Made by a program: the position numbers and the translations under genes. From Hyphomonadaceae bacterium TMED5 (GTDB taxonomy: Bacteria; Pseudomonadota; Alphaproteobacteria; Caulobacterales; Hyphomonadaceae), in the NCBI GenBank assembly GCA_002173095.1, contig NHBK01000009.1:186001-250000 (forward strand): a stretch of 64,000 bases of DNA. The letters are read 5' to 3'. The notes below the pieces were generated by a model. The model searched no databases and was not told where the DNA came from. It worked only from the letters and a program-made list of their open reading frames with translations. Each line of letters starts with the position of its first letter. Positions within the stretch are counted from its first letter, which is position 1. Below are positions 873 to 35,276 of this stretch, one piece after another.

Positions 873-2988
873 GGCTTCAGCTCTTTTGCGGCCTTTAAGT
901 CGGGCTGGCTTCTGGCTTAAAACCGGAGCCAGTCTCGCTGTCCTGGCCCTGACGATGGTCGCGCTGGATCTTGCCTTTCCGCCCCCGATGGAGGCGGCCA
1001 GATCTGGTTCTCTCATCGTGACGGATGCCCGGGGTATTCCGTTGCGGGCCTTCCCGACCGAAGATGGTCGCTGGCGACTGCGCGCTAATCTGGAAAATAC
1101 TGACCCGCTTTTCATTGAAGCGCTGATCGGCGTTGAGGATGAGCGTTTCTATTCCCATTGGGGCGTGGATGTTCTGGCTGTGGTGCGTGCCAGTGGACAG
1201 GCGCTGACAAATGGCCGGATTGTGTCAGGTGCATCCACCATCACCATGCAGACGGCGCGTCTGCTCGAGCCGCGCCCGAGAAATCTTGGCTCAAAACTGA
1301 TCGAGATGTTCCGTGCATTCCAGTTGGAACGCCGGCTCTCCAAAGATGAGATTTTAGAACTGTATCTCACACTCACGCCCTATGGCGGTAATCTGGAAGG
1401 ATTGCGGTCGGCGAGCTGGGCATATTTTGGCCGGGAGCCAGATCGTCTGTCTGATGATCAGATCGCGCTCTTGCTCGCTTTGCCTCAATCGCCAGAAGTT
1501 CGCCGTCCTGATCTGCGACTGGAAAATGCCCGCGCGGCCCGCGCCCGCCTTCTTGAGCGTATGACGGAATTGGAGCTGATTTCTGTTGCTCGCGCGGATG
1601 AGGCGGCAGAATTGCCTTTGCCGGGACGTCATGCATTCCCGGCGCTTGGCTGGCACGCCAGCGCGCAGATTCGAGACGCTGCGCTGACGGCACAGATCGA
1701 AGATGAGCGGTTCGGAATGCCGCTTGAAGATATCCGCTCCACGCTGGATGCAGGTCTTCAGACGGCGCTTGAAAGCATGCTGCGTGACGCCGCGCTTGAG
1801 CTTTCGCCTGAGGTGCAGATCTCAGCCATAGTTGTTGAAACTGAAAGCCGTTCGGTGCGCGCTATGGTTGGCTCTGCCAGCCGGGAACGGGCAGGGGGCT
1901 GGATCGATCTGACTTCGTCGGCGCGCTCGCCAGGGTCGACCCTCAAGCCCTTCATTTACGGCATTGCCTTTGATGATGGTGTGGCAATGCCTGACACCTT
2001 TATCGAAGACCTTCCGGCTCGGTTTAATTCCTACAGACCTGAAAACTTCGACCGATCCTTCCGTGGGCAGGTGCGTATCAGCGATGCGCTTCAGCATTCG
2101 CTCAATGTGCCTGCGGTTCTGGCGCTTGATCGTATCGGGCCAGAACGTTTCGCCTCATCGCTGGAGCTGGCTGGGGTGCCGCTTCGCATCCATGGGTCGT
2201 CCTCCCGCGATGCCGGGTTGGCGCTGGCGCTGGGCGGGGTTGGTATGACAGTTCAGGACTTGGCTCTGCTATATGCCGGCTTAGGCGATCATGGCCTGAT
2301 GCGTCCGCTGGCCTGGACGGAAGCGGAGCTGGCAGAGCGTGAAGGTGAAGCCGGGCGCCGCTTTATGAGCGATGGCTCTGCGCAGGAGATTATCGACATT
2401 CTGCAAAGCGCGCCGCAACCGTCCGGACGTATGCCATCACGCCTAACGCAGAACGCACCAGAAATCGCCTTTAAGACCGGCACGTCATATGGCTTCCGGG
2501 ATGCCTGGGCTGCGGGCATTGCGCGCGGGCATGTCGTGGTTGTCTGGGTGGGCCGGGCTGATGGGGCGCCGCGTCCGGGAGAGACGGGGCGTCTGGCGGC
2601 TCTGCCATTGCTGTTCAGCGTGTTCGACCGAGTGTCTGACGAGCTGGGCGTGACAGGTTCAGCGCAGGACCGGCTGGTGGCAGAGCAGGCGGATACGCCG
2701 CTTCACACCATGGCGCGATTTGGAAACCACGATGACCCGCCGCTTATCCTCTTCCCACCGGAAGATGTGACCCTGATGCAACGCAGCGCAGATCATCCGA
2801 ACCCGGGCTATGTTCTGGCCGGGCGCGGGTCTGGACCGCTTCGATGGTTTGTGGATGGCGAGCCGATTGAGGAAGACGCCGCAGGCGCGCCGTATTGGGT
2901 GCCTCAGAGTCCAGGTTTCTATGATTTGTCCGCTGTGGACCCCAATGGTCGTGAGGCGCAGGTTTCCGTAAGAGTACAAGCATTTTAA
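862..2988 (+). CDS. pbpC: Penicillin-binding protein 1C (glycosyltransferase/transpeptidase)
   Basis: Class A PBP of 708 aa that polymerises and may cross-link peptidoglycan at the outer face of the inner membrane. A single N-terminal membrane segment (about residues 20-40) is followed by a GT51 transglycosylase domain with the EDERFYSHWG motif and GASTITMQ box. The penicillin-binding domain has STLK with Ser359 as nucleophile, SLN at 413 and KTGT at 538. The last ~90 residues form the extra domain typical of PBP1C. An ATG at 862 is preferred over the GTG three bases earlier. It overlaps the alpha-2-macroglobulin gene, so the two are probably co-translated. Confidence 0.95.
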   Translation: MKAKASALLRPLSRAGFWLKTGASLAVLALTMVALDLAFPPPMEAARSGSLIVTDARGIPLRAFPTEDGRWRLRANLENTDPLFIEALIGVEDERFYSHWGVDVLAVVRASGQALTNGRIVSGASTITMQTARLLEPRPRNLGSKLIEMFRAFQLERRLSKDEILELYLTLTPYGGNLEGLRSASWAYFGREPDRLSDDQIALLLALPQSPEVRRPDLRLENARAARARLLERMTELELISVARADEAAELPLPGRHAFPALGWHASAQIRDAALTAQIEDERFGMPLEDIRSTLDAGLQTALESMLRDAALELSPEVQISAIVVETESRSVRAMVGSASRERAGGWIDLTSSARSPGSTLKPFIYGIAFDDGVAMPDTFIEDLPARFNSYRPENFDRSFRGQVRISDALQHSLNVPAVLALDRIGPERFASSLELAGVPLRIHGSSSRDAGLALALGGVGMTVQDLALLYAGLGDHGLMRPLAWTEAELAEREGEAGRRFMSDGSAQEIIDILQSAPQPSGRMPSRLTQNAPEIAFKTGTSYGFRDAWAAGIARGHVVVVWVGRADGAPRPGETGRLAALPLLFSVFDRVSDELGVTGSAQDRLVAEQADTPLHTMARFGNHDDPPLILFPPEDVTLMQRSADHPNPGYVLAGRGSGPLRWFVDGEPIEEDAAGAPYWVPQSPGFYDLSAVDPNGREAQVSVRVQAF

Positions 2989-3108
2989 CAAGTTGCGACT
3001 TTTTCATCACGCCAGTGTGACCAATGCATTACATTGCAGTCACATGTGCTTGAAAGGGGTAGAAATCGCCCCCGGCTATCACTTAATGAGCCTCAGAAAC
3101 AAAAATAA

Positions 3109-3128
3109 CCGACGGAAAACATCGTCGG
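3109..3128 (+). promoter_or_regulatory. Small hairpin in the msrA leader
   Basis: CCGACG and CGTCGG form a perfect 6-bp stem around an 8-base loop, 25 bases before the msrA start. No T-run follows, so it is not an intrinsic terminator for pbpC. It may be an mRNA-stabilising or regulatory leader element. Function is unknown. Confidence 0.35.
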
Positions 3129-3152
3129 ACTTGGGCAAATAAGAGAAGTTAC

Positions 3153-3821
3153 ATGCGTATCGCACAAAACTATGTGCTGGCGATGATTGTTGGCGCCGCA
3201 GCCGCTGGCTTTGCCTTTCTTGGGCAGGCCGCCACCAGCCAGGATTCACAAACCACGAGTTCAAACTCTGTATCTCAGGCGGACGCCGTTTTTGCGGGCG
3301 GATGTTTCTGGTGCGTAGAAGCTGACTTCTACAAGGTCGATGGCGTGCTTCAGACGATTTCTGGATATACCGGCGGAGACCTTGCTAATCCGAGCTATGA
3401 GCAGGTCAGCCATACAGACACCGGTCACCTCGAAGCCGTGCGTGTCATCTATGATCCGGAAATCGTAAGCTATGAGGAACTGGTTGACTATTTCTGGCGT
3501 CATATCGATCCGCTGAACCCGAACGGTCAGTTCTGTGACATCGGCCCAAGCTATCGCACCGCTATTTTTGTCGAGACACCAGAAGAGCGTGCCATCGCTG
3601 AGGCGTCTAAAACGGCACTCGATGAAGGCGGCACACTGGCGGGGCCTATCGTGACACGCATTATTGACCAGGAAACCTTCTGGCCTGCCGAGGGCTATCA
3701 CCAGAATTACTATATCGAGAATTCACGCCGGTATAACTTCTACCGCGAGCGGTGCGGTCGTGATGCCCGCATTGAAGCGGTCTGGCAGAACACGCCTGCT
3801 ATCGATATTGCGACCCATTAA
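3153..3821 (+). CDS. msrA: Exported peptide-methionine (S)-S-oxide reductase
   Basis: Repairs oxidised methionine (S-sulfoxide) in proteins. The 222-aa product begins with a hydrophobic segment (residues 8-27) that looks like a signal peptide or membrane anchor, then a linker, then the MsrA fold. The active-site motif GCFWC is at residues 50-54, with Cys51 as catalytic cysteine. Further matches include the GYTGG stretch, the HTDTGHLEAV segment and the YHQNYY motif near the C terminus. Export suggests repair of periplasmic or outer-membrane proteins, in keeping with the neighbouring envelope genes. No MsrB domain is fused. It is monocistronic, with a strong hairpin terminator 20 bases downstream. 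Confidence 0.95.
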   Translation: MRIAQNYVLAMIVGAAAAGFAFLGQAATSQDSQTTSSNSVSQADAVFAGGCFWCVEADFYKVDGVLQTISGYTGGDLANPSYEQVSHTDTGHLEAVRVIYDPEIVSYEELVDYFWRHIDPLNPNGQFCDIGPSYRTAIFVETPEERAIAEASKTALDEGGTLAGPIVTRIIDQETFWPAEGYHQNYYIENSRRYNFYRERCGRDARIEAVWQNTPAIDIATH

Positions 3822-3843
3822 GCAGAGCAGTTAGAGACATCAA

Positions 3844-3878
3844 AAAAGGCGAGCTGATACAGCTCGCCTTTTCTTTTT
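3844..3878. terminator. Bidirectional intrinsic terminator between msrA and the DUF3617 pair
   Basis: A 12-bp stem (AAAAGGCGAGCT / AGCTCGCCTTTT) with a 5-base loop is flanked by A-rich and T-rich tracts. It lies between convergent genes and should work in both directions. Confidence 0.9.
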
Positions 3879-3893
3879 CAGATTCAATTTGGG

Positions 3894-4328
3894 TTACTCG
3901 CACTCGCCAATGTGTTCGGCCGAGGCATTCATCCGCATGCGAAGCTCACCATTGACCTCGTCCAGATGGGAAATATCTGCGGAAACCGTTACCGCCTGTG
4001 CATCGTTAGTGGTCTCGAATGTGCCGGTTCCCGTCATCAAGACGCCGTACATGTCACAATTCAGATCATAGGCAATTGAAGTCGGCGTTTGCGACGTCGT
4101 GGTGATGGTGCAATCGCTGCCGTAAATGTCGCCGAGCGCAATTACCGCTTCGTCCTGCGGAATGCATTGAGTGAAGACGTTCTCCTGAGCTCCATCGCCT
4201 TCGCCATTAATGGTCTGCTCATAGGTCGCAGACATCTCCCAATTGCCCGGCGCAACCGGCAGGGACTGGGCCATAGCGGGCCCGGCAAGGATTGTGACGA
4301 GTGCGAAGGTGCCTGGGAGGTGTTTCAT
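3894..4328 (-). CDS. DUF3617 family secreted protein (copy 2 of tandem pair)
   Basis: A 144-aa protein with a clear signal peptide (MKHLPGTFALVTILAGPAMAQ) and a mature part beginning with the PGNWEMS motif of DUF3617. Cysteines are spaced as in the neighbouring paralogue. The start at 4328 is chosen because it gives the signal peptide and follows AAAGAGA. A longer frame from 4394 would bury the signal sequence. It ends in the same G-E-x-I-G-x-C signature as the upstream gene and lies 31 bases after it, so the two are tandem duplicates in one likely operon. Function is unknown; periplasmic location is inferred. Confidence 0.85.
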   Translation of the reverse strand: MKHLPGTFALVTILAGPAMAQSLPVAPGNWEMSATYEQTINGEGDGAQENVFTQCIPQDEAVIALGDIYGSDCTITTTSQTPTSIAYDLNCDMYGVLMTGTGTFETTNDAQAVTVSADISHLDEVNGELRMRMNASAEHIGECE

Positions 4329-4359
4329 TGACGTCTCTTTCAGTTTTGCTGTCTGCGCT

Positions 4360-4791
4360 TTACTGGCACTGGCCAATACGCTCACCTGCAACATTCACGT
4401 TGATCTGCATTGCGCCCATTTCGGTTTCGCCCTGCATGGATGTGGTCAGAGCGACAGAGTTTCCACCGTCCTCGACTGAAATGAAGACCTCGCCGGTCAT
4501 GGTTGTGCCTTCCGCGTCGCACATCATGGAATAGGTTTGAGACGTGGATGTGCTGTCGGTCAGTGAAAGTTCGCAATTCTCGTCGGCAATATCGTCGGAA
4601 TCAAAAACGGCGTCTTCTTCTGTGACGCATTCAGTTTCAGATTCTTCCGGAACGGGCATGTTCATTCCCATCATCTCCATCGTGCCGGAGGTCGTGTACG
4701 TCCATTCGCCCGGATTGATTTCAAGCGATTCTCCGTATGCGGTTCCAGCCAGAAAAAGAGCGGCCGTCGTGCCTGCGATTAGAAATTTCAT
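4360..4791 (-). CDS. DUF3617 family secreted protein (copy 1 of tandem pair)
   Basis: A 143-aa protein with a signal peptide ending near TAYG and the NPGEWTYT motif that opens DUF3617. It is met-rich (MEMMGMNMPVPEES) and acidic. The mature part keeps the same cysteine pattern and the C-terminal G-E-R-I-G-Q-C-Q as the adjacent gene. Family proteins are small periplasmic proteins with no proven role. It is first in a two-gene minus-strand unit ending at the terminator near 3844. Confidence 0.85.
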   Translation of the reverse strand: MKFLIAGTTAALFLAGTAYGESLEINPGEWTYTTSGTMEMMGMNMPVPEESETECVTEEDAVFDSDDIADENCELSLTDSTSTSQTYSMMCDAEGTTMTGEVFISVEDGGNSVALTTSMQGETEMGAMQINVNVAGERIGQCQ

Positions 4792-4888
4792 GAGTGCATT
4801 CCTCTATTGTCCCGAGGCACCGTATAGAAAGTGCCCTTGGATTTAAACGGGGGAACGCAGTCCGACCGGACATCTTTTCGCGATGAGC

Positions 4889-6412
4889 CTATTCCTCGGC
4901 TGAAGTGCGAGGTTGCGGGTTGAAGCCTGAGGCATGGAATACGCGGAAATGGCGTGTCCTGCCGCGGCCAAGGTCAATTTCGATTTCGCCGGCCGGTTCG
5001 AAGACTTCAAAGTCGCCGCTTAATAATGGCAAGTGCCGTGGTCGGACATTTAGAACCAGCGCGTTTTCAGCCTCTGCGGGGCTTATCGGCGTTTCTTCCG
5101 AAAAGCTCTGCGGAACCCCTGCGATTTGCCAGGAGCGCAATGGCAGGTCGACACTTCCGTCGCGGCCATAATAATCAAGGCCATGCCATATCTCACGTTC
5201 ATCCACGATTATGGATGTGGCGTTCATGTCGCGTGCCGCCTGCATAATCACATCGACCGTTTCTGGCCAGGCACGAACGCGCTTGAAGGCGTTTGAGAAC
5301 CCGGCAGCGTTGGCGACTGATGGCGGCGCGGTGACAAAATATGAAAACGCCATGGCCAGCACGAAGTTAAAGGCGAGCCCGCCCCAGAGAATGTATCTGA
5401 TCCAGCGCCCTGACGACTGTGTGACCCAGAGCGCTACAAGCACAGCCGCAGCAGGGTAGGCGGTTGCAGCCCAGTTTGCATGTGCGCGGCTGATGAACGC
5501 CTGAACCAGAATGATAAGCAGCGGTGGCAGAATGAAGCTCAACAGCATCCAGCCTCGAATGTCTCCGCGCAGTCTGCCTTTCATGAAAGCGAGCGTACCA
5601 ATGAGCATGATGAGCAGGAGAAAGCCGGTCGGACCAAATACGCCGAACTGATCGAAGAAGAAGGTCAGCATCTGATCGAGATTGAACAGATCCTGATCCT
5701 GTCCCCAATTCGCATTATCGGCGGTATGGCCGATGGTTTTGAAGCCGTTCGAAACGCTCCAGAGAATATGCGGTGTCAGGACGATAAGTGCTGCCCCCAG
5801 CGTGATCGCGCCTTTAGAGCTGAACAATGCTTTTCGTAACTCTCGGTCCAGAATGAGCGATAGCGCGATCCCGATCAGGAAATACACCATTGCGTATTTG
5901 GAGAGAAATCCGACGCCAATCGTTGCGCCGAGCGCGGCGGCCACCCAGACGCGGGGAGCCTCGCGCAGCTTGAACAGCAGATAGAGGGAGCTACTCCAGA
6001 AGGTAAGGAGGATCGCATCTGTTGAGATAATGGACGAGGAGAGCGTAACACCCGGCATAAGCAGGTAGATCAGGCCTGCCACGCAGCCTGTCTTCGCATC
6101 AGCAAGTTTGCGGCCCAGCAGAAACAGAACCAGCCCAGAAGTGGCGTGAAGAAAAGGTGCGAAAAGGCGTATGGCCCATTCCGCATCACCGAAAATAAAT
6201 GTAGACGCACCAATCACCCAGGCAATCATGGGAGGCTTGGAATAATATCCCCAATCGAAAATCGTCGACCAGCGCCAGTATTGCGCTTCATCCACACTCA
6301 GATTTAGCGACGAAAAAGCAATGGTAAGAAGGCGTACAATCAGGATGAATGCGCTGAAATATATGAAAATTTTCAGCCATCTTGCATCGCTGTTTGTATC
6401 TGTTAAAAACAC
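4889..6412 (-). CDS. GT-C glycosyltransferase (family 39/ArnT-like)
   Basis: A polytopic inner-membrane protein with about 10-12 hydrophobic segments. The early SVDEAQYWRWS sequence supplies the acidic DEAQYW motif of GT39-type (ArnT/PMT) transferases that use polyprenyl-phosphate sugars. The next loop has the YYSKPPMIAW motif. It probably adds a sugar to lipid A or another envelope glycan; the acceptor cannot be told. The GTG at 6412 has GGAG six bases before it and gives 507 aa. A GTG at 6457 would add 15 residues but has no good ribosome site. It stands alone between convergent and divergent neighbours. Confidence 0.85.
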   Translation of the reverse strand: MFLTDTNSDARWLKIFIYFSAFILIVRLLTIAFSSLNLSVDEAQYWRWSTIFDWGYYSKPPMIAWVIGASTFIFGDAEWAIRLFAPFLHATSGLVLFLLGRKLADAKTGCVAGLIYLLMPGVTLSSSIISTDAILLTFWSSSLYLLFKLREAPRVWVAAALGATIGVGFLSKYAMVYFLIGIALSLILDRELRKALFSSKGAITLGAALIVLTPHILWSVSNGFKTIGHTADNANWGQDQDLFNLDQMLTFFFDQFGVFGPTGFLLLIMLIGTLAFMKGRLRGDIRGWMLLSFILPPLLIILVQAFISRAHANWAATAYPAAAVLVALWVTQSSGRWIRYILWGGLAFNFVLAMAFSYFVTAPPSVANAAGFSNAFKRVRAWPETVDVIMQAARDMNATSIIVDEREIWHGLDYYGRDGSVDLPLRSWQIAGVPQSFSEETPISPAEAENALVLNVRPRHLPLLSGDFEVFEPAGEIEIDLGRGRTRHFRVFHASGFNPQPRTSAEE

Positions 6413-23040: not shown

Positions 23041-24792
23041 ATGGTGAATTCTCAAAGCTGGGCTGCGGCCCTTATGGCCGCAAGCATGTTGACGGCATGC
23101 GGATCGCAAACGGGTTCTGATGCGCAGCAGTCTGCAGTGACGGTTCCTGAGCCGTCGCCGGCTGTGTCTGAGTTGGGGGCGCCTGTGCCGCAGGCGACAA
23201 GATCTCTGACATCTGAAGATGAGCCTGCCTCAGCGCGTCGTCCTGCGCATATCCAGTCTGTGGATCAGGGCGCGGCTTTGCAACAGCAATACTTTCAGCT
23301 CGCATCGCTGACGACGGAAGGTGATAGCGAAGAGGCGGTGACCGACAGCGGCGGTGCTCGCAATGAAATTGATGTGTTCGATTTCGTTCAGGCGCGCGCA
23401 CGCCGTATGGCGAATGAGGACTATGTCGCGCCGCCGGAAGCGCCAGCCTATATTCGCAACCTCGACTATAATGACTATCGCCGTATTGGATATCGCCGCG
23501 ATTCAGCCCTGTTCGATACGTCGGTTCAGCCGTTCCGCGTGATGCTGGATAGCCGTGGCTCACTCTTCCAGACAGAGATCGGCATGAATGTCGTCACTGA
23601 GACGTCTCTGGACCCGATCAACTTTAATCCGGCTGACTTCAATTTTCACGATCTGGAGATTTCTCCGGCGGAGCAGTCAGGCCTTGGGCTTGCGGGTTTC
23701 CGTCTTCTGGCACCGCTCAATCAGTCCGGTCGTTTTGATGAAGTGATGAGCGTTAAAGGCGCGAGCTTCTTCCGTGCACTGGGCGCAGGCAATCATTATG
23801 GCACCTCTGCACGTGGCATTGCGGTCAACACCGCGTCTGCCGAGGGCGAAGAATTTCCGGTATTCAGCGAATTCTGGATGGAAGAGCCGGGCCCGAACGA
23901 TCAGACCTTCGTATTTTACGCGCTGCTTGATGGGCCAAGCGTGACGGGCGCTTATGAATTTCATGTCCGTCCCGGCGTGCAGACTCAGATTGATGTGAGC
24001 GCAGTTGTCTTCGCGCGTGAGGAAACAGACCAGATTGGTCTTGCGCCTCTGACATCCATGTTCGAATTTGCGCCGCAAGACCCGCAATCGCCAGTGACGG
24101 ATTTCCGTCCGCGCGTGCATGATTCTGAAGGCTTGTCGGCTGTCATGTCGAATGGCGAGTGGGTGTGGCGCCCGCTGACAAACCCGTCAACGCTTCAGAT
24201 TTCCAGCTTTGCCTCCGAAGTGCCTATGGGCTTTGGCCTGATGCAGCGTACGCGCGACTATAATGAGTATCAGGATATCGAAGGCGAATACGAAGCCCGC
24301 CCAAGTGTTTGGGTAACGCCTGGCGAGGGCTGGCGGGCTGGTCAGCTCATGCTGGTCGAGATCCCAACGCCGAACGAGTATAATGACAACATTATCAGCT
24401 ATTGGCGCCTGAATGATGCGTTGATGCCGGGCCAGAGCATTGCGTTCGACTATTCAATGAGCTGGGGTATGGATGCTCCGTTCAACTCGCCGCTTGCTAA
24501 TGTGCATGCCACACGCGTGGGACAGGCCGAAGGTAATTCGGGGCGCCGCCTGTTTGTCGTGGACTTCGAAATTGCTGATCTGGACTCTATGGAAGAGCTG
24601 GAGCCTGTCGTTTCCGCATCTGCAGGTGAAGTGTTCAACGTGGTTGCGACACCAGACCGCCGTAATGGACTTCTCCGTGTGAGTTTTGAGCTTCGCCCGC
24701 CAAATAGCGGTGCGGTGGAGCTTCGCGCGCTTCTAAATCATGTAGAAGAGCCGGTCTCTGAGACATGGCTCTATCGCTGGAGCCCTGCATAA
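23041..24792 (+). CDS. opgG: Glucan biosynthesis protein OpgG (MdoG), lipoprotein form
   Basis: Needed for osmoregulated periplasmic glucan synthesis, acting on the glucan backbone in the periplasm. The 583-aa protein begins with a lipoprotein signal ending MLTAC (Cys20), then about 90 low-complexity residues. The OpgG beta-sandwich fold starts near residue 110 (FDFVQARARRMANEDYVAP) and includes FNFHDLEISP, GASFFRALGAGNHYGTSARG and FGLMQRTRDYNEYQDIEGEYE. A lipid anchor is unusual, since classical OpgG is a soluble periplasmic protein. It is followed directly by opgH. A terminator-containing leader precedes it. Confidence 0.92.
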   Translation: MVNSQSWAAALMAASMLTACGSQTGSDAQQSAVTVPEPSPAVSELGAPVPQATRSLTSEDEPASARRPAHIQSVDQGAALQQQYFQLASLTTEGDSEEAVTDSGGARNEIDVFDFVQARARRMANEDYVAPPEAPAYIRNLDYNDYRRIGYRRDSALFDTSVQPFRVMLDSRGSLFQTEIGMNVVTETSLDPINFNPADFNFHDLEISPAEQSGLGLAGFRLLAPLNQSGRFDEVMSVKGASFFRALGAGNHYGTSARGIAVNTASAEGEEFPVFSEFWMEEPGPNDQTFVFYALLDGPSVTGAYEFHVRPGVQTQIDVSAVVFAREETDQIGLAPLTSMFEFAPQDPQSPVTDFRPRVHDSEGLSAVMSNGEWVWRPLTNPSTLQISSFASEVPMGFGLMQRTRDYNEYQDIEGEYEARPSVWVTPGEGWRAGQLMLVEIPTPNEYNDNIISYWRLNDALMPGQSIAFDYSMSWGMDAPFNSPLANVHATRVGQAEGNSGRRLFVVDFEIADLDSMEELEPVVSASAGEVFNVVATPDRRNGLLRVSFELRPPNSGAVELRALLNHVEEPVSETWLYRWSPA

Positions 24793-24794
24793 GC

Positions 24795-26888
24795 ATGAAA
24801 CCGGTTCGACCGCCGGAAACACCTCTCAATATGCCGGAACAGGCTTTGTCCTGGTCTGGTAAGGTTGGGGTGAGCGGCGCACGCTCAAATTTCTGGAGAA
24901 AGTTCGTCATTGTTGGCGCTGGCCTTTTGATGACGGCTTATCTGGGTTGGCTCATGTTCGACGTGTTGCGCGTGTCCGGACTAACGCACCTCGAATGGGC
25001 GCTGCTTGTAGTGTTCATCGTCAATATTGGCTGGATTGGTTTTGCGTTTGCCAGCGCGGTTGCGGGGTTTCTCGTCAGCTTGTTTACGCCGGTCAGTCGA
25101 CCGTCCGGTTCTGCTGCTCCGCTAAATTCAAAAACGGTCATTCTGTTTCCGGTCTATAATGAATCAGTGCGCGACGTGTTCGCGACGGTTGAGGCGACCG
25201 CTACAGCGCTGGCTGCTGCCGCGCCGGGAAAATTTGAATGCTTTATCCTGAGTGACTCCGTCAGCCCGGATGTCGCTCTGCAGGAAGAGGCAGGCTATCA
25301 GCGCCTCTCTTTGATGGTGACCGAAGACTGCCCGGTTTATTACCGACGTCGCACCATCAATCTGGCGCGCAAGGCCGGTAATATTCATGACTTTGTCGCG
25401 CGATGGGGTGGTCGATACGACCATATGCTCATCTTTGATGCGGACAGTTATATGGAAGCCGACACGCTGGTAGAGTTGGCGCGACGCATGGAGGCCCAGC
25501 CTGAAGTCGGGCTTATTCAAACCATTCCTAAGCTGATTGGTGGCAAAAGTCTGTTCGCGCGTGCGCAGCAGTTTGCAGGCTCTGTTTATGGCCCGGTTCT
25601 TGGACGAGGCATTTCATTCTGGTCCCAGAATGAAGGCAATTACTGGGGCCATAATGCTATCATTCGTACAAAGGCGTTTGCGGATGCCGCGGGTCTTCCG
25701 GTGATGCCGGGCCGGGCGCCATTTGGCGGGCATATTCTCAGCCATGACTTCGTGGAAGCGGCACTTTTGCGCCGCGCTGGCTGGAAGGTTCGTATCGCGC
25801 CAGACTTGGGCGGCTCTTTTGAGGAAGGCCCTCAGACGCTGATCGACCTGTCCATTCGTGACCGTCGTTGGTGTCAGGGGAATTTGCAACACACCGCAGT
25901 CCTCGCCCGCGCGCGAGGCATTTCCTTCACCAACCGGCTGCACTTCACGATTGGGATTATGTCTTATCTGGCATCGCCGCTCTGGCTGGTGCTCATTCTC
26001 GTCGGTATGGCGCTTTCGCTTCAGAACCGGTTTTTGCGACCTGAATATTTCAGTGATGACCCGTCGCTCACACCTAGCTGGCCTGTGATTGACCCGGCAC
26101 TCGCTTTGAATGTGTTCTTTGCGACCATGGCCATTTTGCTTCTGCCGAAAGTGTTCGGCGCTATCGTGACCATGGTGAAGGGACTACGCGGCGGCAAATC
26201 CTGGCTGATCGTGCCCGGCGCACTCGTCGAGACGCTGATCTCAGCTCTTGTGGCGCCAATCCTGATGGCGGCGCAGACCTCATCTGTCTTTACGATCCTG
26301 ACCGGTCAGGATTCTGGCTGGGCGCCGCAACAGCGCGGCTCGGATGGGTATCGATTTAAAGACGTCGCCCGTCGTCATGCCATGACAACCCTGATGGGGA
26401 TTGTCCTGACCTTCGCAGCGCTGATCATCTCCCCGATTTTCGCGGCATGGCTACTGCCCGCCTCGCTCGGTATGATCTTCGCAATTCCGTTGTCTTACTG
26501 GTCAGGAAAATCGCTGAAAGAAGATGGCTGGCTGGCAAACGTGCTGGCGACGCGTGAGGATATCACGCCACCAGCATCATTTACGGATGCTCTGGCGGTC
26601 CGTCATCGCTATGGCAAGCTGGCTTCGCTGTCGGCGGAGCGCGTGCTTTCAGAACCAGACATGGCGGCGCTACATACACGTATGGTCGACACGGTCTGGC
26701 CGCTGGACGCCAATGAAGTGCATGTGCCGCTGGCGATAGCTGAAGCCAAGATCGCCAGAGCTGAAACGCTGGATGGGTATCTCCTGGCGCTTTCGGCCAA
26801 AGAGCGTATGGCGCTTCTGAATTCGCCAAACACAATGGGGCGTGTCAGCCAGCGCTTTTGCGCGCCGGCATCTCAGACCGTCCATTAA
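24795..26888 (+). CDS. opgH: Glucan glucosyltransferase OpgH (MdoH)
   Basis: Inner-membrane processive GT2 enzyme that makes the linear beta-glucan backbone from UDP-glucose and exports it. About 697 aa with two N-terminal membrane segments and several C-terminal ones. The cytosolic domain has VILFPVYNES, IFDADSYME (DxD-like), the acidic HILSHDFVEAALLRR and RRWCQGN, the (Q/R)xxRW equivalent. ATG 24795 starts two bases after the opgG stop; an upstream ATG at 24765 would overlap opgG by 28 bases and cannot be excluded. It converges on the suhB-like gene. Confidence 0.94.
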   Translation: MKPVRPPETPLNMPEQALSWSGKVGVSGARSNFWRKFVIVGAGLLMTAYLGWLMFDVLRVSGLTHLEWALLVVFIVNIGWIGFAFASAVAGFLVSLFTPVSRPSGSAAPLNSKTVILFPVYNESVRDVFATVEATATALAAAAPGKFECFILSDSVSPDVALQEEAGYQRLSLMVTEDCPVYYRRRTINLARKAGNIHDFVARWGGRYDHMLIFDADSYMEADTLVELARRMEAQPEVGLIQTIPKLIGGKSLFARAQQFAGSVYGPVLGRGISFWSQNEGNYWGHNAIIRTKAFADAAGLPVMPGRAPFGGHILSHDFVEAALLRRAGWKVRIAPDLGGSFEEGPQTLIDLSIRDRRWCQGNLQHTAVLARARGISFTNRLHFTIGIMSYLASPLWLVLILVGMALSLQNRFLRPEYFSDDPSLTPSWPVIDPALALNVFFATMAILLLPKVFGAIVTMVKGLRGGKSWLIVPGALVETLISALVAPILMAAQTSSVFTILTGQDSGWAPQQRGSDGYRFKDVARRHAMTTLMGIVLTFAALIISPIFAAWLLPASLGMIFAIPLSYWSGKSLKEDGWLANVLATREDITPPASFTDALAVRHRYGKLASLSAERVLSEPDMAALHTRMVDTVWPLDANEVHVPLAIAEAKIARAETLDGYLLALSAKERMALLNSPNTMGRVSQRFCAPASQTVH

Positions 26889-31748: not shown

Positions 31749-31780
31749 AAAAAAGCCGACACCCTGAGGGTGCCGGCTTT
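31749..31780 (-). terminator. Intrinsic terminator of the first secreted two-domain gene
   Basis: AAAGCCG-ACACCC and GGGTG-CCGGCTTT form a 13-position stem with one mismatch and a TGA loop. The A-run at 31749-31754 becomes the U-tract on the minus strand. Confidence 0.88.
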
Positions 31781-31803
31781 CTGTATCCCGAAGGAAAGAG
31801 CGC

Positions 31804-32700
31804 TTAGCGGCTCATGATCTCGGAAATCGTGAGCGTAGCTGGCTCAAAATCGCCCGCATAGCTGCCAACCCAGATGTCGTACTGACCAGACATTGGTGTG
31901 TCGAGTGAGATGGACGGGTTCATGTTTTCACCGCTGTCATCGTCGCAAATCCAGTTGCCGTCAGGTGCGTTCACAACGAGCGTTGTGTCGAACTCAGACA
32001 TAACTGACAGGATGAGCGGGAATTCTTCGCCAGCTGTGTAGTAGAGACGGAAGTCCGGAGCCGCAGCTACCATGCCTACGCAGCCAACAGATGCCGCATC
32101 AATAGGGCCGCCAGAGGTCAGCTCAACATTGTATGGGTCTTCTTCAAAACCGGTGACCAGTTCAATAGAGCCAAAGCCTGGTTCAAGAGAGAAGTCTGGA
32201 GCCGCGAATTCATCGTCAGAAGTCATGTCAGCGCCGAGGCTGAATGGCATGACTTCAGAAATGAAGAGCGTGGATTCTTCGAAATTGCCATCATAGCTGC
32301 CAACCCAGATGTCGTACTGACCGGTCATTGGCGTGTCGAGCGTGATAGCAGGGTTCAGGCTGTTCTCTGTGTCATCTGCACAAGCCCAGCTTTCGTCTGG
32401 CAGGTTTACGACGAGCGTTGTGTCGTCGTCAGATTCTACAGAGAGGATGAGTGGGAAGTCATCGCCAGCAACATAGTTAAGGCGGAAGTCTGGTGCGTCG
32501 GCAATCATGCCTGCGCAGCCAATGCCGGCAGCGTCGATCATGCCGCCAGATGTGATGGTGACTTCGTAAGGATCTGGAACGAAGCCATTTTCGAGTTCAG
32601 TGGCGCCGAAAGTTGGCTCCAGTGAGTAGTCCTGAGCGAACGCTGCGCCAGACAGAGTCATGATCGCCGTAGCGGCCAGCAGTGTAGTTGTGCGAGACAT
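31804..32700 (-). CDS. Secreted protein with two PPC-like domains (array gene D)
   Basis: A 298-aa protein with a signal peptide (cut after AFAQ) and two copies of one ~125-aa domain (about 24-150 and 168-296). Each copy runs: SLEPTFG-type start, DPY motif, GCAGM with PDFRL, FPLILSV, DTTLVVN, Trp-x-Cys with an Asp-rich turn, and GQYDIWVGSY, ending in an ISE strand. Two cysteines per domain could pair, and the Asp-rich turn could bind calcium. The pattern resembles bacterial pre-peptidase C-terminal beta-sandwiches. Similar alphaproteobacterial proteins are often labelled peptidase S1, but no protease residues exist here. It has its own ribosome site and terminator. Confidence 0.85.
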   Translation of the reverse strand: MSRTTTLLAATAIMTLSGAAFAQDYSLEPTFGATELENGFVPDPYEVTITSGGMIDAAGIGCAGMIADAPDFRLNYVAGDDFPLILSVESDDDTTLVVNLPDESWACADDTENSLNPAITLDTPMTGQYDIWVGSYDGNFEESTLFISEVMPFSLGADMTSDDEFAAPDFSLEPGFGSIELVTGFEEDPYNVELTSGGPIDAASVGCVGMVAAAPDFRLYYTAGEEFPLILSVMSEFDTTLVVNAPDGNWICDDDSGENMNPSISLDTPMSGQYDIWVGSYAGDFEPATLTISEIMSR

Positions 32701-32942
32701 CTTATTTCCTTGTTTCAGACTTTTTCGAAGCGAAACAACCAGAAATCATTTGGCGCCCAGCCCCATGATTTTCCAACGCGCAATTCCGTCTTCGTGCTTG
32801 ATTTTAAAGTGAAGAAGTAAACTCGGATAGTTCGATCTGCAGCGCGAACTGCAATTTATGATGGTTCGCTGTCCGGGATATTTGCTGATCACATCACCTT
32901 GGCGTGGGTGAGCGCCCATACATTCCAGAGTCAGCAGTCAAA

Positions 32943-32970
32943 AGGCTGCCCCGAAGCTGGGACAGCCTTC
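32943..32970 (-). terminator. Intrinsic terminator of array gene C
   Basis: AAGGCTG / CAGCCTT with an inner CC/GG pair and a 10-base loop; the flanking AAAA gives UUUU on the minus strand. Confidence 0.75.
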
Positions 32971-32987
32971 TGAAGTGTTCGTGAAAT

Positions 32988-33440
32988 CTATTCGACTTCA
33001 GAGATAGACAGAACAGAAGCAGCGTTGCCGCCTTCATAGTCGCCAACCCAGATGTCGTACTGGCCAGAAAGTGGGCTGGACAGGCTTACAACAGGGTTCA
33101 GGCCGTCTGTGTCGTCGTCGCAGATCCAAGAGCCGTCTGGAGCGTTGATGACCAGGGTTGTGTCATCTGCAGATGCAACAGAGATGATCAGCGGGAAAAT
33201 GTCACCAGCGTTGTAGTTGAGGCGGAAGTCTGGAGCGTCAGCAATCATGCCTGCGCAGCCTACGCTAGCTGCGTCGACGGTGCCGCCGGCGATGATTTCA
33301 ACTTGGTATGGATCTGGCTCAAAACCTGTGTCCAGAGCAACTGTGCCGAAAGACGGCTCGAGAGAGAAGTCCTGAGCGTAAGCAGCGCCAGAAGCAGATA
33401 CGATAACGGCACCTGCCGCGAATGCGAAATTGCGGTACAT
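32988..33440 (-). CDS. Secreted protein with one PPC-like domain (array gene C)
   Basis: A 150-aa protein: signal peptide ending in GAAYAQ, then a single copy of the array domain with GCAGM, PDFRL, DTTLVIN, WICDDDTDGLNP and GQYDIWVGDY. Its signal peptide (MYRN...SASGAAYAQ) is close to that of the other single-domain gene ending at 34815 and unlike those of the two-domain genes. AAGGGAAT precedes the ATG. Function is unknown; secretion and a disulfide-bonded beta-sandwich are inferred. Confidence 0.85.
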   Translation of the reverse strand: MYRNFAFAAGAVIVSASGAAYAQDFSLEPSFGTVALDTGFEPDPYQVEIIAGGTVDAASVGCAGMIADAPDFRLNYNAGDIFPLIISVASADDTTLVINAPDGSWICDDDTDGLNPVVSLSSPLSGQYDIWVGDYEGGNAASVLSISEVE

Positions 33441-33657
33441 TTGTATTCCCTTAAATTAGTCCCAATGGTGCGAAGATTTGCGTCTCCCATTCCCCCGAAC
33501 AGTTCAGCGAGACGCGAGCAGATGAGTCCATCTTCTGATCACGTTCTAGTGAGGGGTCGGTGATATGCAAGGAGAAATCTCAGCACAGATGCCGTGATAT
33601 ACAGTCGCACCTGAATGTATTCTGAATGAATTCAATGAAAGCAAGTAATTGAACGCA

Positions 33658-33682
33658 TTTACGGTGTATATCGAACCGTAAA
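33658..33682. promoter_or_regulatory. Operator-like inverted repeat in the array
   Basis: TTTACGGT and ACCGTAAA are perfect 8-bp arms separated by nine bases, giving a centre-to-centre distance of 17 bases, suitable for a dimeric regulator. It lies about 220 bases upstream of array gene C. Confidence 0.4.
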
Positions 33683-33769
33683 ATTCAACTCTTTGACGTG
33701 TGTATATATTTCAATATGCTGAAATACGGTTGGAAAATAGAATTCTATACTTGCGCATTTGTCCAGAAA

Positions 33770-33793
33770 AGAGCCCGCATTGTTGCGGGCTCT
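33770..33793 (-). terminator. Intrinsic terminator of array gene B
   Basis: A perfect 10-bp stem (AGAGCCCGCA / TGCGGGCTCT) with a 4-base loop; AAAA at 33767-33770 supplies the U-tract on the minus strand. Confidence 0.9.
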
Positions 33794-33813
33794 GGTGAGA
33801 TGTTGCGCTGATT

Positions 33814-34692
33814 CTACTTACTGTAGAGTTCGGAAATAGACAAAAGCGCTTCGTGATAGTCGTCTGAATAGCTGCCCACCCAGATGTCGTATTGTCCACT
33901 GGCAGGTTGGTCGAATGTGATGGATGGATTCAAGCCCTCGCCGCTATCATCGTCACAGACCCAGCTCGCATCCGGCGTGTTCACTACCAGTGTTGTATCG
34001 CCTGAAGAGTCTACCGAAAGAATGAGCGGAAAGACGTCGCCTGCGGAGTAGTTGAGGCGAAAATCTGGTGCTTCGGCAATCATACCGGTACAGCCAACAA
34101 CATCGGAATTAACCGACCCGCCGGATGTCAGACTCACATCGTATGGGTCAGGAGAGAAGCCCGCACTCAGATCGACATATCCATATCCTGGTTCAAGCAT
34201 ATAGTCTGGCCGAAGCGAGGAAGAGCTGCTTTGCACATCCAATTCGGAAATGTAGAGCGTCGCCGGGTCATAATTCCCGCCAAAACTGCCAACCCAGATG
34301 TCGTACTGTCCGGTCATCGGGTACTCGAAAGTGATTGCCGGGTTTAAGCCTTCACCGCTGTCGTCATCACATGTCCAGCCGCCATCTGGCGTGCTCACAA
34401 CCAGCGTCGTATCGCCGGTAGAGTCGACGGACAGGATGAGCGGGAAAGTGGTGCCCGCCGTGTAATAGAGACGGAAGTCTGGCGGATCGCTGATCATGCC
34501 GGCACAGCCCATACGCTCATGCGCGCTGACAGGACCACCTGAAGTGACCTCAATGCTGAACGGGTCGGGGGAAAAACCAGTATCCAGTTCAACGGAACCA
34601 TAAGTTGGCTGAAATTTGCTTGCCTGCCCGTGCGCTGTGCCCGCAGCGCAAATAACGATGGCCGCAGCCATCAATCCTGTGTGTCTAAACAT
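33814..34692 (-). CDS. Secreted protein with two PPC-like domains (array gene B)
   Basis: A 292-aa protein with a signal peptide ending AHGQ and two tandem copies of the array domain joined by a short Ser-rich linker (DVQSSSSSLRPDY). Both copies keep the GC-GMI, PDFRL, FPLILSVDS, GDTTLVV, CDDDSGEGLNP and GQYDIWVGS blocks. The second copy is slightly closer to the consensus; the first has an insertion (SAHERMGCAG). GAGGG precedes the start. It is independently terminated. Its two-domain form pairs it with the gene ending at 31804. Confidence 0.85.
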   Translation of the reverse strand: MFRHTGLMAAAIVICAAGTAHGQASKFQPTYGSVELDTGFSPDPFSIEVTSGGPVSAHERMGCAGMISDPPDFRLYYTAGTTFPLILSVDSTGDTTLVVSTPDGGWTCDDDSGEGLNPAITFEYPMTGQYDIWVGSFGGNYDPATLYISELDVQSSSSSLRPDYMLEPGYGYVDLSAGFSPDPYDVSLTSGGSVNSDVVGCTGMIAEAPDFRLNYSAGDVFPLILSVDSSGDTTLVVNTPDASWVCDDDSGEGLNPSITFDQPASGQYDIWVGSYSDDYHEALLSISELYSK

Positions 34693-34760
34693 TCAAAAGC
34701 CCTCATTCCCATATTTAGAGTATGGGTATTACAGCGTAAAATCGAATGTTAGGCAAAGAA

Positions 34761-34791
34761 AAAACCGACCTGCAGCGCGCAGATCGGTTTT
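34761..34791 (-). terminator. Intrinsic terminator of array gene A
   Basis: AAAACCGA / TCGGTTTT outer stem plus CTGC/GCAG inner stem with one mismatch; an A-run on the left becomes the minus-strand U-tract. Confidence 0.85.
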
Positions 34792-34814
34792 CTGTATTTT
34801 GATTTCAGCAGGTT

Positions 34815-35276
34815 TTAGTTGCTGGAAAGCTCTGAGATGGAGAGCGTTGAGTTGTTGTAGCCGCCGCCATAGCTGCCAACCCAGATGTCATACTGACCTG
34901 ATGGTGGGCTGGAGAGGTAAATGGAAGGGTTCAGGCCATTGCCGCTGTCATCGTCGCAAAGCCAGCTGCCGTTCGGCATGTTCACAACCAGTGTCGTGTC
35001 AGCATCTGATGCGACAGACAGAATGAGTGGCAGTGCATTGCCCGCGCCAAAATACAGGCGGAAGTCAGGTGCGTTTGCGACCATGCCCGCGCAGCCAATA
35101 TTGCCTGCATCAATGCTGCCGCCAGCTGTGATGCTCACATTGTAAGGATCAGGCGAAAAGCCCGAATTCAGAGAAGCAGAACCGTAGGTTGGTTCAAGAT
35201 TGAAATTCTGTGCGTATGCTGCCCCAGAAGCGGAAATGAGTACAGCTGCAGCTGCCATTGCCAATTTGCGATACAT
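34815..35276 (-). CDS. Secreted protein with one PPC-like domain (array gene A)
   Basis: A 153-aa protein: signal peptide MYRKLAMAAAAVLISASG ending AAYAQ, then one copy of the array domain with GCAGMVANAPDFRLYFG, DTTLVVN, WLCDDDSGNGLNP and GQYDIWVGSYGGG. ATG 35276 is chosen because it starts the signal peptide; the longer frame to 35339 does not. It is first in the direction of transcription and divergent from gluQ. Function is unknown. Confidence 0.85.
   Translation of the reverse strand: MYRKLAMAAAAVLISASGAAYAQNFNLEPTYGSASLNSGFSPDPYNVSITAGGSIDAGNIGCAGMVANAPDFRLYFGAGNALPLILSVASDADTTLVVNMPNGSWLCDDDSGNGLNPSIYLSSPPSGQYDIWVGSYGGGYNNSTLSISELSSN

Follow-up and report, generated by a model that had tools for sequence, protein, structure and literature searches.

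What is the domain that four adjacent genes of Hyphomonadaceae bacterium TMED5 repeat six times, and what could predicted exported proteins built of nothing else do? The genes lie on the minus strand of a 64,000-nucleotide stretch of contig NHBK01000009.1 (the window) and run from position 35276 to 31804, with 1, 2, 1 and 2 domain copies in transcription order (g1 to g4). This layout, described in a first-pass annotation made from the letters alone, is borne out by the open reading frames (ORFs) and by an alignment of all six domains, which are 126–127 residues long, share 55–66% pairwise protein identity and have 51 invariant columns, a likeness far beyond chance. The domain is a diverged, cysteine-bearing form of PPC (pre-peptidase C-terminal, PF04151) and not a new family. 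The array is real, well described and mostly explained as a stand-alone variant of this kind.

The resemblance to PPC, which the first-pass annotation had offered as an inference, proved right. g2 reaches the Pfam gathering score (26.4 bits against a cut-off of 25.9), and 57 of 116 family domains (the six of the window plus 110 of 168 non-redundant related ones) match PPC at E ≤ 0.1. An hhalign comparison of the family with the eight PPC repeats of a 950-residue protein from the same genome gave a probability of 93.9 and an E-value of 1.6e-7 over 74 columns; six of these eight repeats match PPC at E ≤ 0.01. The Pfam match of g2 and the hhalign result rule out a new, unrelated family and, with PPC being a characterised family, the novelty claimed for the domain is by the annotation's own measure mostly gone. 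The 950-residue protein, encoded at 2114–4966 of locus L007 (C16:503500-509500), is exported and has about eight PPC repeats (Pfam PPC, E 1.7e-36). Three genus relatives keep a 949-residue frame of its kind. A second, adjoining frame of ~897 residues has PPC-like repeats.

With PF04151 the array domain shares the sequence profile, the predicted beta-sandwich fold, the Asp-rich turn and a strand of the SGxY type. It differs in its two conserved cysteines, in its N-terminal ~50 residues, which lie outside the Pfam match and hold the first cysteine, and in its setting: the array proteins stand alone behind a signal peptide, with no peptidase. No catalytic family reaches its cut-off in g1–g4 in Pfam and NCBIfam profile searches, in keeping with the earlier statement that catalytic motifs are absent. 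Because the four genes have no catalytic domain, we file their domains as PPC-type and not as peptidase tails, a layout that relatives in locus L146 do have. NCBIfam returned nothing usable for the array genes or the members: one of the 116 members matches NF007464, 'hypothetical protein' (E 0.0013), which we suspected to be a PliG model, but E. coli PliG matches no NCBIfam model at E ≤ 0.01. A comparison of g1 with phage records gave no match, and viral structures gave one at E ≤ 0.001, a 1225-residue phage protein.

The AlphaFold2 model of the single-domain protein g1 (pLDDT 92.2, pTM 0.89) predicts a beta-sandwich of the PPC/collagen-binding domain (CBD) fold. The top VIA rows are collagenase collagen-binding/PPC domains, namely ColG 1nqj (Z 9.4, root-mean-square deviation 2.7 over 100) and 5sv5 (Z 8.9). 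ColG, ColH and Bacillus collagenase domains span Z 8.3–9.4, and the C-terminal domains of KP-43/SubHal and Tk-SP (1wmd, 5fax, 3afg, 9ues) have the same fold at Z 8.2–8.9; the latter are subtilase tails, and KP-43 aligns over the Asp-rich strands (E 0.17). The lysozyme inhibitor PliG (4dzg), periplasmic by its title, has a related fold but a weaker VIA match (Z 7.5), and sequence support was not found with E. coli PliG. In the two-domain model (pLDDT 90.6, pTM 0.62) the linker, residues 133–142, falls below pLDDT 50, and the first Foldseek row is the ColG tandem CBD 5iku (E 1.8e-7). The collagen-binding domains ColG s3a/s3b and ColH s3 (1nqd, 2o8o, 5iku, 3jqw) are thus alike in fold and in tandem arrangement; identity, however, is 11–18%, the array has no collagenase, and collagen binding by it is hypothetical. 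Structure rows for PirA, a claudin-toxin and CUB were set aside as common beta-sandwich likeness.

DeCLIC N-terminal domain 1 shares the jelly-roll fold (VIA Z 7.6) and a DDxGxG calcium turn; it differs in belonging to a channel and in having helices inserted between the calcium strands. In PMC12664993 this domain was found similar to the collagenase CBD, Tk-SP and PliG. Its calcium site 1 consists of Asp76, Asp123 and Asp124 with the carbonyls of 77, 123 and 129, and a second, looser site of the carbonyls of 124, 126 and 128. HMMER aligns the family's dddsgegl with DeCLIC DDDGGKGY (chain positions 122–129), which places D87, D88, G90, G92 and L93 of the g1 model at DeCLIC 123, 124, 126, 128 and 129. 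Conservation was counted over 215 distinct domains with at least 80% coverage, left from 237 domain hits after 22 short or duplicate rows were dropped. Both cysteines are retained in all 215, Tyr107 in 213, D71 in 212, D87 and D88 in 209 each, G92 in 158 and G90 in 106 (62 gaps). The DeCLIC mapping and this alignment suggest that calcium ligands of ColG-type domains are conserved in the array domain. The calcium site and disulfide that the annotation had proposed to look for gain support from both, as putative rather than physical features.

All four N-termini look by eye like signal peptides ending AxA-Q or AxG-Q, which points to export, and the MYR...SASGAAYAQ type is common to g1 and g3, as had been noted. 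Other details given earlier hold in part. The quoted motif pattern recurs, but CDDDSG is replaced by CDDDT in g3 and by CADDT in g4 domain 1, DTTLVVN by DTTLVVS in g2 domain 1 and DTTLVIN in g3, and GMI by GMV in g1 and g4 domain 2. The terminator assigned to each gene corresponds to a hairpin 3' of each, with a clear T run after those of g1 and g4 but only four T's after those of g2 and g3; a simple terminator scan listed none of the four. From the hairpins, separate expression of the genes is plausible. A DNA glycosylase-like gene (alkA) flanks the array on one side and a glutamyl-Q synthetase-like gene (gluQ) on the other; these names, and argD and DUF805 below, were assigned by reading ORFs. 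The genome belongs with Ponticaulis ('Ponticaulis-type'), being of the same genus as Ponticaulis koreensis DSM 19734, Hyphomonadaceae bacterium UBA1849 and Ponticaulis sp. SP186 (G001, G002 and G006). The array has the following parts:

34815–35276, minus strand: g1, predicted exported single-domain protein, 153 residues counted from ATG; three further Ponticaulis-type genomes have the orthologue at this locus
35208–35276, minus strand: g1 putative signal peptide, MYR...SASGAAYAQ type, by reading the translation
34827–35207, minus strand: g1 PPC-type domain, from the domain alignment; model pLDDT 92.2
34759–34793, minus strand: g1 3' hairpin and T run, -21.3 kcal/mol over a 60-nt stretch
33814–34692, minus strand: g2, predicted exported two-domain protein, 292 residues; sole array gene above the Pfam PPC cut-off
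34240–34620, minus strand: g2 domain 1, from the domain alignment
33826–34206, minus strand: g2 domain 2, from the domain alignment
33770–33793, minus strand: g2 3' hairpin and short T run, -19.4 kcal/mol over a 56-nt stretch
32988–33440, minus strand: g3, predicted exported single-domain protein, 150 residues
33372–33440, minus strand: g3 putative signal peptide of the g1 type, by reading the translation
32994–33371, minus strand: g3 PPC-type domain, from the domain alignment
32938–32973, minus strand: g3 3' hairpin and short T run, -27.2 kcal/mol over a 53-nt stretch
31804–32700, minus strand: g4, predicted exported two-domain protein, 298 residues; its nearest relative is the double gene found in three further Ponticaulis-type genomes
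32251–32631, minus strand: g4 domain 1, from the domain alignment
31816–32196, minus strand: g4 domain 2, from the domain alignment
31750–31782, minus strand: g4 3' hairpin and T run, -27.8 kcal/mol over a 59-nt stretch

What would such proteins do? The most likely reading, to which we assign a probability of about 0.5, is that they are exported, calcium-stabilised protein-recognition modules. g1–g4 would give periplasmic or secreted proteins built solely of PPC-type beta-sandwich domains, each held by one disulfide. Calcium would bind at the conserved Asp at the start of the DTTL strand and at the Asp-Asp of the CDDD turn, and the face made rigid by it, with the conserved SGxY tyrosine, would bind a protein or peptide ligand, by analogy with protease PPC domains that bind protein substrates. 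The one- and two-domain versions would then be binders with one head or with two, a flexible linker joining the two. PPC domains on their own have been shown to bind proteins, with a role for conserved Asp and Tyr/Trp residues (PMC3327674). A recognition module would also fit the fusions of relatives to Trypsin, Trypsin_2, Peptidase_C14 and Pkinase domains. Purifying selection is strong: between relatives the single gene has a nonsynonymous divergence (dN) of 0.0035 with a synonymous divergence (dS) of 0.28–0.31 in two pairs and dN 0 with dS 0.10 in a third, and the double gene has dN 0.035–0.057 with dS 0.48–0.67.

Several observations weigh against calcium-stabilised recognition modules of the PPC type. 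Three of the four array genes (g1, g3 and g4) have no Pfam PPC match. Foldseek orders the structures differently from VIA, two subtilases, PliG and a toxin-domain row preceding Bacillus PPC 5sv5 (fifth, E 4.6e-4), and query TM-scores of its first rows are merely 0.45–0.54. Taken alone, the DeCLIC sequence match falls short of significance (E 0.22) and carries weight only in combination with the fold, and we infer the correspondence of D71 to DeCLIC Asp76 across the helical insert. The putative disulfide is not universal because diverged relatives from one other family of the class (L142–L144, fetched after the 215-row count and so outside it) have no Cys before DDD and carry cysteines elsewhere. 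A Grimontia PPC domain binds collagen with EGTA present, so not every PPC domain binds via calcium (PMC6168687). Finally, no neighbour genes are conserved across clades; flanks are common only within clades.

The structural matches also admit a surface or matrix adhesin, whose tandem CBD-like domains would attach to an insoluble polymer, such as algal or animal matrix or biofilm, in the way that ColG s3a–s3b binds collagen: the best VIA matches are collagen-binding domains, the first Foldseek row of the two-domain model is the ColG pair, and arrays and multi-domain forms occur, with up to seven family domains in one frame. We consider an adhesin unlikely, as reading the four proteins revealed no anchor or sorting signal, although no search was aimed at one, and the four array genes include no enzyme to be targeted. 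Still more doubtful is an inhibitor or immunity protein against peptidoglycan-cutting enzymes, of the PliG or Xanthomonas XAC2610 type, in which the SGxY loop would plug a lysozyme-like active site and copies would multiply as in immunity arrays. Aeromonas hydrophila PliG (4dzg) does rank third in Foldseek (E 3.0e-4), but its VIA Z of 7.5 lies below the tool's distinctive level and below the collagenase PPC rows. For XAC2610, PMC10933484 describes a calcium loop and predicts that a conserved Tyr plugs the active site, and an SGxY-like stretch of E. coli PliG aligns with the family over 22 columns; against the single E. coli PliG sequence, however, hhalign gave a probability of 2.0 (E 0.024), and no PliI/PliG-type name occurs in the eight families matched by the 116 members. 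In Tistrella a distant relative lies within a type VI secretion cluster, flanked by tssA and hcp, a context seen once only. Beside the array itself no effector or secretion gene was noticed on reading the window ORFs of at least 150 residues, with no profile search made for them, and the protease and kinase fusions do not suggest an inhibitor.

Some relatives do carry the domain C-terminal to a peptidase, and the array genes could in principle be detached tails of former peptidases, functionless relics. This is very improbable and we reject it on dN/dS: purifying selection is strong, synteny of the single gene is conserved in four genomes, the window's included, and frames without a catalytic domain are intact in 80 loci.

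These 80 loci were kept from the 170 with relatives that a scan of the genome collection found. By reading of their labels they belong to Caulobacterales, Maricaulis- and Oceanicaulis-type bacteria, sphingomonads, Acetobacteraceae and a few others. Of the 125 family frames in them, 74 have a single domain, 35 have two and 16 have three to seven. None of the 125 has a catalytic Pfam family at E ≤ 0.001; at this threshold PPC is found in 37, PKD_3 in one and Y_Y_Y in one. The long N-terminal extensions of 11 family frames are, by eye, stop-to-stop artefacts. The second largest neighbour cluster (112 frames in 61 loci) was dismissed as no neighbour: 79 of its frames overlap a family gene on the opposite strand, and we read the remaining 33, which are minus-strand frames, as shadow frames.

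Family, class and phylum samples, which overlap and each include the window's genome, place the array in context. Members occur in 13 of 105 genomes of its own family and in 15 of 289 of the class (both E ≤ 1e-15), and in 22 of 398 of the phylum (E ≤ 1e-10). In the family sample the window's genome has the most domains, six. However, other groups of the class reach at least seven per genome in the class sample and at least ten in the phylum sample, lower bounds from the best 14 or 10 candidates scored per genome. Six domains in one genome are therefore not exceptional. The stand-alone form is a scattered minority in the sampled Alphaproteobacteria; it is under strong purifying selection in Ponticaulis and often multiplied.

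The samples also contain a few fused relatives, which were chosen for long frames and give no frequency estimate. In L126 the family domain is followed by Trypsin_2. Two adjacent genes of L146 (2198–5025) encode Trypsin and then the domain, and Peptidase_C14 and then the domain, possibly a two-protease pair with one common recognition module. Eukaryote-like Ser/Thr kinases (Pkinase) with a C-terminal PPC-type domain are encoded in L142 (2–2005) and L143 (2964–5429); a membrane segment and coiled coil, assigned by reading, lie between, and these are apparently receptor kinases with the PPC-type domain outside. L124 (579–4406) has a PPC-type domain, Sel1 repeats and an OmpA-type end in one large frame, which lies at a contig end and may be incomplete. 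In two genomes of different classes (L126, 1305–2789; L145, 2787–3545) the PPC-type domain is followed by a short repeat around DGECDDPRF, which may be another metal-binding repeat and in L126 links the domain to the trypsin-like protease. More speculatively, the cysteine-locked PPC subfamily might be a shared extracytoplasmic recognition module of Alphaproteobacteria, used on trypsin-like and caspase-like proteases, receptor kinases and OmpA anchors, with stand-alone arrays as free, soluble counterparts acting on the fused receptors and enzymes by competition, shielding or regulation; we hold this to be improbable.

How did the array arise? The first-pass annotation suggested that a one-plus-two gene pair was duplicated as a unit, the opposing pattern being that neighbouring domains within each gene are closest relatives. 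At the gluQ–alkA place three other Ponticaulis-type genomes carry two single-domain genes. The first is the g1 orthologue (72.5% identity, same flanks); the second falls in an older clade (95/88), which Maricaulis shares and which includes no window domain. In all three genomes the double gene has argD on one side and a DUF805-like gene on the other, a place where the window's genome has these genes 186 bp apart with no family gene between. G003–G005, three of the seven genus genomes, have no close member.

Trees of the six domains weakly join g1 with g3 (58/48 protein, 57/68 DNA), in line with pair duplication and the shared signal peptide; they also weakly join the two g2 domains (56/60, 72/80), so that the opposing pattern appears for g2 alone. 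A larger tree, built from 53 domains of the window and of 17 loci selected from the 80, with domains below 60 bits left out, has neither arrangement. Domain 1 of g4 joins domain 1 of the relatives' double gene (86/76) and domain 2 joins domain 2 (91/76), g3 branches as sister to the domains of the Ponticaulis-type double genes taken together (98/91) and not to g1, and g2 is unplaced among the domains of g4 and the relatives' double genes. In a joined-domain tree the partner of g4 is the relatives' double gene (87/84) and not g2. Approximately unbiased (AU) tests on the larger tree reject neither g1+g3 (p 0.418), nor the first domains of g2+g4 (0.5), nor same-gene domains as closest relatives (0.36 for g2, 0.406 for g4), and on the joined-domain tree g2+g4 as whole doubles is not rejected either (0.124). 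The six-domain AU values are 0.391 (protein) and 0.215 (DNA) for g2 domain 2 with g4 domain 2, and 0.387 and 0.0884 for g2 domain 1 with g4 domain 1. Duplication of the pair in this lineage is thus neither supported nor rejected, and it is not favoured. On our reading of the sequences, the double form probably existed before these species diverged, and one copy has since moved to another place; the 5' end of g3, with the signal peptide in common, may have been acquired from g1.

The domain is known in kind, and its stand-alone versions scattered through Alphaproteobacteria seem little studied: the matches listed in the open-licence PubMed Central (PMC) literature included no paper on this family of stand-alone PPC proteins. 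The PPC literature, in what was available of it (e.g. PMC3327674), treats the domain as the tail of secreted proteases; here it is the whole of a predicted exported protein. A solved ligand of one single-domain protein would show what the domain recognises, free of any enzyme. Public annotation can mislabel the family, as in the Tistrella mobilis pTM1 relative between hcp and tssA (L118, 3905–4396), a single-domain protein of 163 residues annotated 'peptidase S1' in which Pfam finds nothing. Elsewhere in the window, two adjacent genes at 23041–26888 form what we take to be a periplasmic glucan pair of the OpgG/OpgH type.

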